NCBI GenBank assembly: GCA_937951485.1
Contig: CALEDJ010000001.1
Span: 1 to 11,081, forward strand
DNA length: 11,081 nt
Source: an uncultured bacterium
GTDB taxonomy: Bacteria > Hydrogenedentota > Hydrogenedentia > Hydrogenedentales > CAILVY01
Direction of reading: 5' to 3'
Shown one piece after another: positions 270 through 11,081 of this stretch (its first letter is position 1; every line of letters begins with the position of its first letter). Made by a program: the position numbers and the translations under genes. A model generated the notes under the pieces. The model did not search any database and was not told the DNA's origin. It was given only the letters and a program-made list of their open reading frames with translations.

Positions 270-271
270 TA

Positions 272-281
272 CAATATATTG
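272..281. promoter_or_regulatory. Operator-like palindrome CAATATATTG
   Basis: This is a perfect 10-bp palindrome identical to the core (425-434) of the larger palindrome in the promoter at 415-443. It lies about 153 bp upstream of that core, in the same AT-rich segment. A second binding site for the same dimeric regulator is an inference from the sequence match alone; no regulator gene is present in the window. Confidence 0.4.
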
Positions 282-328
282 AATACAGCGTCAGTGATTC
301 ATTTGGTGAAAAAATGAGCGATTTGGCG

Positions 329-338
329 CAACATATTG
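329..338. promoter_or_regulatory. Operator-like site CAACATATTG
   Basis: This matches CAATATATTG with one substitution (T to C at 332). Its right half continues as TATTGTA, like the TATTGTG half-site of the promoter palindrome. A further isolated right half-site TATTGTG lies at 375-381. Together with 272-281 and 421-438 these form a cluster of related motifs over about 165 bp. Confidence 0.3.
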
Positions 339-414
339 TAGGAAGATATAAAATATCATCAAAATCTCCATAAATATTGTGGGAAAATTTTCTTGGAGAG
401 AGCAAAAAAAGATC

Positions 415-443
415 TTGACAAACACAATATATTGTGTTATGCT
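415..443 (+). promoter_or_regulatory. Strong sigma-70-type promoter reading rightward
   Basis: A perfect -35 hexamer TTGACA (415-420) is separated by exactly 17 bp from TATGCT (438-443), a one-mismatch version of TATAAT. Upstream of it is A-rich sequence (404-410) and a GAAAATTTTC palindrome (383-392), which could act as an UP-like element. Transcription would start near 450 and run toward the convergent ankyrin gene. The downstream 200 bp contains no convincing reading frame with a ribosome binding site, so the natural transcript is either a small RNA or the remains of a deleted gene's leader. Confidence 0.65.
421..438. promoter_or_regulatory. Perfect 18-bp palindromic operator inside the promoter
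   Basis: AACACAATATATTGTGTT is a perfect palindrome with 9-bp half-sites. It fills the spacer between the -35 and -10 boxes and includes the first base of the -10. A dimeric repressor bound there would block RNA polymerase directly, the usual geometry for local or autoregulated HTH repressors. The identity of the regulator cannot be read from the sequence. Confidence 0.6.
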
Positions 444-649: not shown

Positions 650-3259
650 TCAGCCTGTTTGGGGCTGGAACTGGCCGATGAGGCGGGCTGCGGTCATGTG
701 GCCTGCATGTTGTGCGACCTGTTCGGGGATGTCGCCGCGACGGGATGGCAGGTCTTTCTGCGCACCGTGAAGCAGCAGGGTTCGGATAACATCCATGTGG
801 CCATTTTCGGCGGCTTCATGCAAGGGGGCGTAGCCGTCAATGCTCACGGCGAGGATGTTTGGGTCGGCGCCTTTTTCCAGGAGCAGTTTGACGGCATCGG
901 CGTGCCCGGCGCGCGCGGCGTGGTGGAGGGGGGTGAGTCCGAAGAGGGTGCCGTTGATGAATTCGGGGAACATTGTGGTGAGTTTCTCCAGTCGTTCCAA
1001 GTCCGCGAACATGGCGGCATTCTTGTATTCCTCATAAAGCACGGCGCGCAGGAAAATCAGGGTGCGGTCCTGACCGAGCCGCGTTGCAATCTGCATGGGG
1101 GTCATTCCCAGCGCGGGAGCGCGTCGTTTGACCTGTTCCTCAACCATATCCAAGGGCGTCTTTCCATCGTTGGTGAGGGCGAACACGTCTGCCCGGCGCC
1201 CCACAAGGAGTCTGACGGTGCGGAGGTGTCCGTTTACGGCGGCCAGATGGAGCGGGGTGTTGCCGTGTTTGTCGGGTGTATTGATGTCAAGGCCGCGCAA
1301 GATGAAAAGTTGGGCCGGTCCCCAGTGTCCGGCTGCGGTGGAGGCGTGCAACGGCAGCCAGCCCTGATTGTCCGCCAGGAAGATATCTGCATCATTGGCG
1401 GTCAGCGCTTTGACAATCAGGATATGTCCTCGCCGTGAGGCGAGATGCAGGGGGGTGCGCCCATCGGCATTGCGCACATTGATGTCCACGCCTTTGCTGA
1501 TCAGGAACTCGGCGGATTCCACGCATCCGCGCTCGGCCACGGCATGGAGCGGGGACTGATTGGTATTGTCGCGGTGGTCGGGGTCAAGGCCAAGTTCGAC
1601 CAGCCAGCGCACGGCGTCCGGCGTGTCATTCTCGGCGGCGGCATAGAGCGGGGTGCGACCGAAGCGGTCGCGCACGTTGATTTCGACGCCCAAATCCACG
1701 AGTTTCCTTGCGATATCCACATGTTCATGGAACAGGGCGGTGAAGAGAGGGGTGCGTTCGTCGGCGTCACGCGCATGGATGTTTGCACCCTTTTCAATCA
1801 GATGGTCAACGATGTCGCGATGTCCGCGGGCGATGGCGGCATGGAGGGGAGTGCGGCGTTCCCGGTCCTGTGACTCAATATCCACGCCTGTCTCCAGGAA
1901 CAGGCGCACCAACGCCAGATGCCCCTCCTCAGCGGCAATATGCAGCGCGTTGCGGCCGTCTCTGTCTTTCTGGCTGGGGTCGGCGCCGCATTCGAGGAGC
2001 AGATGGACCATCTTCTCGTTGTTCATCTCCGTCGCCACGTGGACCGGCGCGTAGCGGCGGCGGTCACGCGCGGAAATATCGGCGCCATTCTCGTGAAGAT
2101 ATGCAACAATGTCTGCAAAGCCTTTGTTTACAGCAATCTGCAAGGGGGTGAAGGTGTCGCGGTTCTTGCCTTCGAGATAGGCGCCGTTTTCAACAAGCAG
2201 CCGCGCCACATCCAGCCGGCCTGTTTCAGCGGCAAGGTGGAGGGGCGTATCGCCTGCCCGGGACCGGGCATCAATATTCGCCCCGCGAGAAATGAGGAAG
2301 GCGACCATGTCGGGCGAAGCCGACCGAACCGCCAAATGCAGCGCCGTTTCTTCCATTCGTGATCCGCTGGTGTCATTTATCGAAAGGCCGAATTCAAGCA
2401 GTAAATCAACCATTTCTTTCGCTTCGCGCCGCACGGCTATCGTCAGGGGCCGGTCGCCTTCCCGGGTGGATGCATCCATGCGGGCGCCTCTCTCCAGGAG
2501 AAATCGCGCCGTTTCGGTGTTGTCGGTCATGACCGCCTCCAGCAGCGGTGTGACCCCCAGAATCGTGGCGGCGTTGACATGATGCGGGTCGTTCTCGAGG
2601 ATTTCACGCAACGCCCGCAGGTCGCCCACGCCTGCGGCATGATGAATCGTATAATCCGGGCCGAACCGACGCAGCAACGCGGTCGCTTCCCATTGTTTGG
2701 CCTCCGCAGCAACTTGAAGCGGGGGCGTGGCAATATCCTCCCGCACCATGCTTCTTGTGTTCGCGCCCAATCCGACCAACGCCCGGATGGCGTCGGTTTG
2801 GCCGGTTCTCGCGGCGTAATGAAGCGGATTCAGCATGTCGGCATTGCGTTTTTCCAAATCCAATCCATGCTTGTGAACAATGTCGAGCGTATAAATACGC
2901 CCCGCGGCCGCCGCAAGATGCAGCGCCGTATTGCCTGCCCCATCCCGGGATTCTAAATCGGCGCCCGCCTGTAACAGTTCATGGACGATAGCGGGCCGGC
3001 CGCTTTGCGCGGCAAAGAGGAGGGCGTCCAGGCCATCGTCGCCGCGTGCGTGGATATCCAATCCACTCCGCAGCATGCGGCGAAACGCATACAAATCGCC
3101 CGCCGCGATAATCTGACGAAGGGTGGCATGGTTCAACCCCGTTGCCGGAGCCGCCTCGCTGAGGTTGTCCTCCGGGGCATCCGCATTACTGAAGTTCCAG
3201 GAATATCCCAGGCCGAAGAACATTGCGGCAAGCGCAATGCACAGCCACGTTCTTTTCAT
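650..3259 (-). CDS. Exported ankyrin-repeat protein
   Basis: This 869-residue protein consists almost entirely of ankyrin repeats, which form a binding surface for other proteins. Residues 1-27 look like a signal peptide: a basic MKR start, a hydrophobic stretch from about residue 5 to 19, and a possible cut after SNA. About 23 repeats of 33 residues follow from about residue 42, many with the consensus G-x-TPLHLAA-x-x-GH and a conserved LL-x-x-GA-D. Repeats 9-20 (about 303-698) are the most regular. Residues 699-773 are an irregular insertion with only a degenerate repeat, and 774-869 return to three repeats, the last lacking its tail. No enzyme domain or membrane anchor is visible. The start ATG at 3259 has a distant AAGGG (3270-3274). 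The protein probably acts in the periplasm or outside the cell; its partner is unknown. It is the last gene of the minus-strand block, 247 bp after the hydrolase gene. Confidence 0.92.
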   Translation of the reverse strand: MKRTWLCIALAAMFFGLGYSWNFSNADAPEDNLSEAAPATGLNHATLRQIIAAGDLYAFRRMLRSGLDIHARGDDGLDALLFAAQSGRPAIVHELLQAGADLESRDGAGNTALHLAAAAGRIYTLDIVHKHGLDLEKRNADMLNPLHYAARTGQTDAIRALVGLGANTRSMVREDIATPPLQVAAEAKQWEATALLRRFGPDYTIHHAAGVGDLRALREILENDPHHVNAATILGVTPLLEAVMTDNTETARFLLERGARMDASTREGDRPLTIAVRREAKEMVDLLLEFGLSINDTSGSRMEETALHLAVRSASPDMVAFLISRGANIDARSRAGDTPLHLAAETGRLDVARLLVENGAYLEGKNRDTFTPLQIAVNKGFADIVAYLHENGADISARDRRRYAPVHVATEMNNEKMVHLLLECGADPSQKDRDGRNALHIAAEEGHLALVRLFLETGVDIESQDRERRTPLHAAIARGHRDIVDHLIEKGANIHARDADERTPLFTALFHEHVDIARKLVDLGVEINVRDRFGRTPLYAAAENDTPDAVRWLVELGLDPDHRDNTNQSPLHAVAERGCVESAEFLISKGVDINVRNADGRTPLHLASRRGHILIVKALTANDADIFLADNQGWLPLHASTAAGHWGPAQLFILRGLDINTPDKHGNTPLHLAAVNGHLRTVRLLVGRRADVFALTNDGKTPLDMVEEQVKRRAPALGMTPMQIATRLGQDRTLIFLRAVLYEEYKNAAMFADLERLEKLTTMFPEFINGTLFGLTPLHHAARAGHADAVKLLLEKGADPNILAVSIDGYAPLHEAAENGHMDVIRTLLLHGAQKDLPSRRGDIPEQVAQHAGHMTAARLIGQFQPQTG

Positions 3260-10741: not shown

Positions 10742-11081
10742 CATTTCGGCCGACTGGCGTAACCTCTGGAATCAACACACATGACCGGTGCTGTCCAAAA
10801 AATTCTGGGCGCTGAGAAAAGCCTTCAATTATATTGACTTCCCCCTCACCACATCCCCCCTCACCCCACCCCTCTCCCGGAGGGAGAGGGAGCAACAGCA
10901 TTCCCCAGGTGGCGCGCCAAACACCCTCTCCCGGAGGGAGAGGGAGCAACAGCATTCCCCAGGTGGCGCGCCAAACACCCTCTCCCGGAGGGAGAGGAAG
11001 CAACAGCATTCCCCAGGTGGCGCGCCAAACACCCTCTCCCGGAGGGAGAGGGAGCAACAGCATTCCCCAGATGGCGCGCCA
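10742..11081. other. Intergenic region with tandem repeat array
   Basis: The 340 bp after the HD-GYP stop codon contain no credible gene. Positions 10742-10845 are ordinary sequence without a clear T-tailed terminator. From about 10846 the sequence becomes C-rich with several CCCTCACC-type stretches, which lead into the 54-bp tandem array. The minus-strand frame through the array is an 18-residue periodic artefact. Confidence 0.7.
10870..11081. repeat. 54-bp tandem repeat array (about 3.9 units, cut by window end)
   Basis: Units start at 10870, 10924, 10978 and 11032, each exactly 54 bp; the last is cut after 50 bp. Each unit has a near-palindrome, CCCTCTCCC-GGA-GGGAGAGGG (9-bp arms), then a spacer AGCAACAGCATTCCCCAGG and the 10-bp palindrome TGGCGCGCCA. 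Only two substitutions are visible: unit 3 has GGGAGAGGA in the right arm, and unit 4 has CAGATGG in place of CAGGTGG. Near-identity points to recent amplification or homogenisation. The preceding C-rich sequence resembles the common intergenic CCCTCACCCC...CTCTCCC repeats of many bacteria. The hairpins may also end transcription of the upstream gene. Confidence 0.9.

Follow-up and report, generated by a model that had tools for sequence, protein, structure and literature searches.

Background

Fur-RyhB and OmpR-MicF are bacterial small RNAs under the control of a dedicated regulator. The locus described here resembles them in that a signal-sensing regulator appears to stand over a stand-alone small RNA, in this case one with unpaired C-rich segments. 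It differs in its predicted signal (dATP/ATP), in having no identified target and no Hfq detected in the genomes searched (see below), and in an RNA with a long closing stem and several hairpins. The regulator in question, NrdR, is a repressor of ribonucleotide reductase (RNR) genes that senses DNA building blocks; its regulon comprises the nrd operons of Escherichia coli, Salmonella, Streptomyces and Streptococcus, with several 16-bp palindromic boxes overlapping the promoter (PMC9110341, PMC12051234, PMC2892513, PMC12176259). The locus shares these traits, and its genome also has NrdR and RNR genes preceded by boxes. Unlike the known regulon, the gene predicted to be controlled is a non-coding RNA, and the boxes are 41-57 bp apart, against 31-32 bp, with up to four boxes spread over approximately 160 bp.

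The window (the whole stretch of 11,081 nucleotides analysed) belongs to a genome of the phylum Hydrogenedentota. Its positions 269-625 are read as one regulated unit composed of an array of NrdR boxes, a strong sigma-70-type promoter, a stand-alone structured RNA and a GC hairpin; the RNA would be made when dATP falls and may act in trans. A probability of about 0.8 is assigned to this reading. The operator, the identity of the NrdR boxes, the RNA, its structure, its single-copy conservation in the phylum and the coupling of box and RNA were computed. No NrdR-controlled non-coding RNA was found in the open-access literature, to which the search was limited, and no report joining Hydrogenedentota with a small RNA was found there (most subscription papers lay outside the search). 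NrdR boxes and structured bacterial RNAs are both known kinds of element; what appears to be new is how they are combined, how the operator is laid out and the RNA family itself.

Promoter and operator features

The elements upstream of the RNA are listed below, with positions in the window. Matrix scores refer to a weight matrix derived only from boxes in promoters of the structured RNA.

269-284, no strand: distal NrdR box ATACAATATATTGAAT, 153 bp upstream of the promoter box (matrix score 10.1)
326-341, no strand: distal NrdR box GCGCAACATATTGTAG, 96 bp upstream of the promoter box (matrix score 16.3)
367-382, no strand: weak site resembling an NrdR box, TCCATAAATATTGTGG, 55 bp upstream of the promoter box (matrix score only 3.3)
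415-420, + strand: -35 element TTGACA, conserved in relatives
421-438, no strand: operator, a perfect palindrome that fills the promoter spacer and contains the 16-bp NrdR box ACACAATATATTGTGT at 422-437 (matrix score 22.5)
438-443, + strand: -10 element TATGCT, with TAnnnT conserved in relatives

Direct reading of the sequence gives TTGACA, a 17-nt spacer and TATGCT; the two hexamers match the consensus at 10 of 12 positions and a TG precedes the -10 element. The spacer is occupied by the perfect palindrome AACACAATATATTGTGTT, as an earlier note on this DNA had described, and a perfect palindrome of 18 bp arose in 1 of 1000 dinucleotide shuffles of positions 1-640. The same note had reported an exact copy of the palindrome core (CAATATATTG, 272-281), a copy with one mismatch (CAACATATTG, 329-338) and the half-site TATTGTG (375-381), all of which were confirmed. 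Two further palindromes that it listed, GATATAAAATATC (345-357) and GAAAATTTTC (383-392), are present in the sequence, but they are not NrdR boxes and have no support as regulatory sites. The proposal of an operator would have been refuted had the palindrome occurred nowhere else in the genome or in relatives. With up to three mismatches the 18-mer occurs at six places in the 4.55-Mb genome (77 contigs), versus one for the reversed control, and boxes of this kind were found in relatives as well.

The bases at 422-437 fit all 16 positions of acaCwAtATaTwGtgt, which we take to be the NrdR-box consensus. The E. coli K-12 loci with nrdHIEF, nrdDG and nrdAB, each 5-6 kb long, were scanned with the weight matrix. 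At each locus the two best sites form a pair 31 bp apart in the nrd promoter (before nrdH, nrdD and nrdA, respectively), the published spacing of NrdR boxes being 31-32 bp (PMC2892513). Matrix boxes were also found upstream of the operon of thyX and RNR in 22 of the 28 Hydrogenedentota genomes with enough upstream sequence, and none was found in 59,625 scanned bases of RNR coding sequence. The genome of the window has a box pair (C18:27793 and C18:28035) upstream of thyX and an adenosylcobalamin-dependent ribonucleotide reductase, and an nrdR gene at C5:81756-82193 (E = 5e-61); NrdR scored above the cut-off in 54 of 60 genomes. On account of the E. coli pairs, the boxes before thyX and RNR and the presence of NrdR in the genome, the palindromes at 421-438, 326-341 and 269-284 are identified with high confidence as putative NrdR boxes, an assignment made from sequence in the absence of binding data. 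This absence, together with a spacing that departs from the classic pairs, leaves some room for another regulator with a similar site. Such a regulator is very unlikely, however, since the same motif marks the thyX-RNR operon as well as three E. coli nrd promoters, and NrdR is nearly universal in the phylum.

A box with a score of 12.6 also lies 65 nt upstream of nrdR itself (L147:1192-1207), which suggests autoregulation. Elsewhere in the genome just one further NrdR box is near-perfect (C33:30445-30460, equivalent to L029:5946-5961); it has one mismatch to the 18-mer, whose copy there is at C33:30444. It is located in a promoter of the form TTGACA..TTTTAT that faces a gene similar to N-acetylmuramoyl-L-alanine amidase, with no second box nearby.

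The earlier note had proposed a multi-site operator for a dimeric regulator, and this is borne out by additional boxes that, throughout the phylum, precede this RNA at preferred distances. At least one further box within 320 bp upstream of the promoter box was found in 46 of 50 genomes, versus 1.8 expected from shuffles. The preferred offsets in relatives are 95-97, 162-164, 142-144, 127-130, 53-56 and 83-84 bp, with 95-97 bp the commonest, and neighbouring boxes are commonly separated by approximately 41-47 or 53-57 bp. Counterparts of the box at 269-284 lie 150-153, 142-144 or 162-164 bp upstream, and some relatives have better boxes than the site at 367-382 at an offset of 53-56 bp. Among 3000 shuffles of positions 240-414, none contained two or more box-like sites with a score of at least 10, and five contained one or more.

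The spacers between successive boxes of the window are 41, 25 and 39 bp, and the pair separated by 25 bp (326/367) includes the weak site. The promoter box is thus 39 bp from its weak neighbor, and the closest good box lies at 96 bp, outside the range of 12-27 bp for which spacers were tested in PMC12051234. In that study, NrdR was reported to need two boxes with spacers of 14-17 or 24-27 bp, the latter being accepted in vitro, while a single box was not bound (PMC12051234). Measured against these requirements, the gap of 39 bp to a weak neighbor makes the predicted arrangement unlike the NrdR operators described. In some genomes of family f10 the offsets are 42-43, 83-84 and 127-128 bp, so that spacers of roughly 25-29 bp result. 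The helical phasing of all distal boxes relative to the promoter box did not peak clearly at 10.5 bp (R was 0.19, with a best value of 0.47 near 11 bp), and strict phasing is therefore not claimed. Looping or higher assemblies of NrdR at the operator are possible, and there are no data on either.

Two 38-nt copies of GAATATGTCTTCATGGCAGGGGGATGAACTGAGAGGGA, 92% identical and starting 74 nt apart, lie at 158-195 and 232-269, just upstream of the most distal NrdR box.

Predicted structured RNA gene

The following features were assigned downstream of the promoter.

449-625, + strand: structured non-coding RNA gene; covariance model R1 matches 449-614 with 133.5 bits, the start is inferred near 449-451 and the end just after the GC hairpin
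451-462, + strand: 5' strand of closing stem P1, paired in the fold with 561-572; compensatory changes in 8 of 11 modelled pairs
475-523, + strand: hairpin P2 with the C-rich loop CCGCAGCCCAA, from the fold; all P2 pairs compensatory in the fitted alignment
534-549, + strand: region of hairpin P3, from the fold, with the conserved motif CTTGCGCC (26 of 34 sequences)
561-572, + strand: 3' strand of closing stem P1, from the fold and covariation
573-584, + strand: C-rich linker ACCCCGCACGAT, unpaired in the fold, with CCCGCA conserved in 24 of 34 sequences; a possible antisense seed
585-613, + strand: GC hairpin GGGCGGCGGG..CCCGCCGCCC, probably a terminator stem; 5 of 10 pairs compensatory, 98.5% of cells paired
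614-624, + strand: C/U-rich tail CCCTCCTTCTC; the tails of relatives are, in many cases, CCTCC(T/A)TTT

DNA matches to positions 400-640 were obtained in 33 of 60 genomes; wherever a match was extracted in full, the promoter, the box, the RNA and the GC hairpin occur together. When 84,980 species were scanned with a sequence pattern, 25 matches came up, all of them in Hydrogenedentota. Because that pattern included the promoter, it is uninformative on RNAs lacking a box, and model R1 was accordingly derived from the RNA alone, with the promoter excluded. By R1, 53 of the 68 phylum genomes contain exactly one copy; they include 34 of the 38 of good quality and represent 10 of the 11 families sampled. 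A broader second model, R2, adds four genomes for a total of 57. An NrdR box occupies the promoter position in all 52 of the 53 R1 matches for which upstream sequence is available (49 by the strict pattern, three as variants recognized by eye). The suggestion in the earlier note that the promoter may control a small RNA is thereby supported, in that the promoter precedes a conserved structured RNA defined by the covariance model, whose transcription is inferred. The note's alternative of a transferred regulatory island is not supported as a recent event, because the unit is single-copy and present in 10 of 11 families. An RNA that covaries, is present as a single copy and occurs in at least 57 of the 68 genomes probably matters to these uncultured bacteria.

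Two good genomes of family f10 (G022 and G031) have no model match, yet in both of them a stretch of DNA matches the promoter part with its box (G022:C168:6927 and G031:C79:59216). The RNA may thus have diverged in these genomes, or the match may be another NrdR promoter.

The structure is supported by compensatory changes in 31 of 39 pairs over 34 sequences in the fitted alignment, in which 90.8% of cells are paired. None of 500 shuffles was as good, and structures slid along the alignment gave 10-15 pairs and 39-46% of cells paired. In a MAFFT alignment, which is not fitted to the structure, 13 compensatory pairs were found versus 6.4 expected, with P1 held at 97.7% and the GC hairpin at 100%. 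P2 and P3 are less well supported than P1 and the GC hairpin because fitted alignments favor their own structure. The first RNAalifold consensus missed P2, since one family carries an inserted hairpin, and was replaced by a hand-drawn structure and a covariance model. Unpaired C-rich segments are strongly conserved, among them CAGCCC of the P2 loop, which is present in 32 of 34 sequences. The tail that follows the GC hairpin is C-rich before the U run, which is unusual for an intrinsic terminator.

In RNAs of the family f5 type (L044, L053, L058, L062 and L064) the inserted hairpin contains the CCGCAGCCC motif once more, which would fit a duplication of the P2 module.

A search with 4227 Rfam models (E values up to 1) gave no match overlapping the RNA, either in the window or at 10 loci. 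Like 6S RNA (RF00013), the RNA has a size of approximately 165-240 nt, a long closing stem and an open interior; in contrast, it has no Rfam match, and the true 6S RNA of the genome sits elsewhere, above the cut-off at C32:74874-75058, so that this identity was rejected. SRP RNA (RF00169) and tmRNA (RF00023) were rejected as well, being located at C53:35834 and C68:74171, respectively. This exclusion of housekeeping RNAs covers 6S RNA, SRP RNA and tmRNA, and does not include RNase P RNA.

No protein gene follows the promoter in the window, where an ankyrin-repeat gene (650-3259, - strand) is convergent with the RNA. The position of the RNA between a promoter and a possible terminator hairpin would also suit a cis-acting leader, such as a riboswitch or attenuator of a downstream gene. 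This explanation is largely refuted and keeps scarcely any weight: the next gene is the convergent ankyrin gene, which ends at 650, no co-directional gene lies downstream, and the genes downstream in relatives (GFO/IDH, URO-D, ankyrin, MaoC, glycosyltransferase, cytochrome b561) are unrelated to one another and mostly convergent. The idea that the transcript encodes a small protein is more doubtful still. Short open frames do occur in single genomes, but the longest range from 11 to 54 amino acids and differ between relatives in position, start and sequence; conservation tracks base pairing, and no conserved reading frame was seen in the 11 genomes examined. As the neighbors differ between families and are mostly convergent, the RNA, whose transcription is inferred, is taken to stand alone and to act either in trans or on a protein.

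In a genome of a different family (G010, L072:121-1104), too, the RNA faces a large convergent ankyrin-repeat gene, a hint of old synteny.

Proposed function

NrdR binds DNA as a tetramer loaded with dATP/ATP (PMC9110341). The mechanism of NrdR is taken from the literature, and its binding at this locus, transcription of the RNA and its ends, derepression by low dATP and a trans-acting role are inferred. At high dATP, NrdR would occupy the promoter spacer and keep the RNA from being made; at low dATP it would leave the DNA, and the RNA would be produced together with ribonucleotide reductase. The RNA could then act in trans and extend the reach of NrdR to genes without boxes. Its conserved unpaired C-rich segments (the CAGCCC loop, CUUGCGCC, the CCCCGCA linker and the CCUCCUUU tail) might pair with G-rich translation starts.

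Pairing of the C-rich segments with mRNA is the preferred guess for the action in trans, placed ahead of a protein-binding role, and remains tentative. A scan for RNA-RNA duplexes with the leaders of thyX, RTPR and nrdR of this genome, the only three tested, gave nothing above shuffled targets, and Hfq (TIGR02383) was detected in none of 30 genomes, with positive controls. Both results are points in favor of an RNA that instead acts on a protein, in the manner of 6S RNA or a sponge, with RNA polymerase, a replication protein or a C-rich-RNA-binding protein as partner; through NrdR, the level of the RNA would follow the cell's need for DNA precursors. The single long closing stem with internal loops, the repeated C-rich loops and the near-universal single copy in the phylum fit such a role. 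It is nevertheless considered somewhat less likely than pairing, as positive evidence for a protein partner is absent and a separate 6S RNA is present at C32:74874.

Within the preferred reading of a C-rich RNA that pairs with mRNA, the tail at 614-624 could be a seed or just a terminator tail, its function being inferred from likeness only. What follows the GC hairpin (in many relatives CCCUCCUUU) is similar to the anti-Shine-Dalgarno (3') end of 16S rRNA.

With NrdR boxes guarding its promoter, a non-coding RNA appears to be linked to the supply of DNA precursors. It is an evenly balanced proposition that one dedicated structured RNA, near-universal and single-copy, serves the whole phylum as an output of NrdR under an extended multi-box operator, and that NrdR regulates genes without boxes through it. 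If true, the RNA would be a DNA-precursor counterpart of the iron-responsive RyhB. The operator offers a direct clue to the condition in which the RNA is made, a shortage of DNA precursors. It also makes two ideas testable, namely that dNTP supply is tied to post-transcriptional control and that NrdR acts through boxes 40-160 bp apart.

Other features of the window

Positions 94-133 contain a dispersed GC-rich repeat with the appearance of a hairpin (GCGGGTCCCCCACCGCCTTCGGCGGCAATTCGC...), of which approximately 20 further copies occur in the genome; it is possibly a REP-like element. Positions 1-141 of the window repeat, in reverse, the initial 141 bases of contig C62; this is an overlap of the assembly graph, and the sequence to the left of the window therefore probably continues on that contig. 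The right end of the window (10860-11081) is a tandem array with a unit of roughly 50 nt that is open in several frames, and the start of C62 carries GGGAGAGGG-rich repeats similar to this array.
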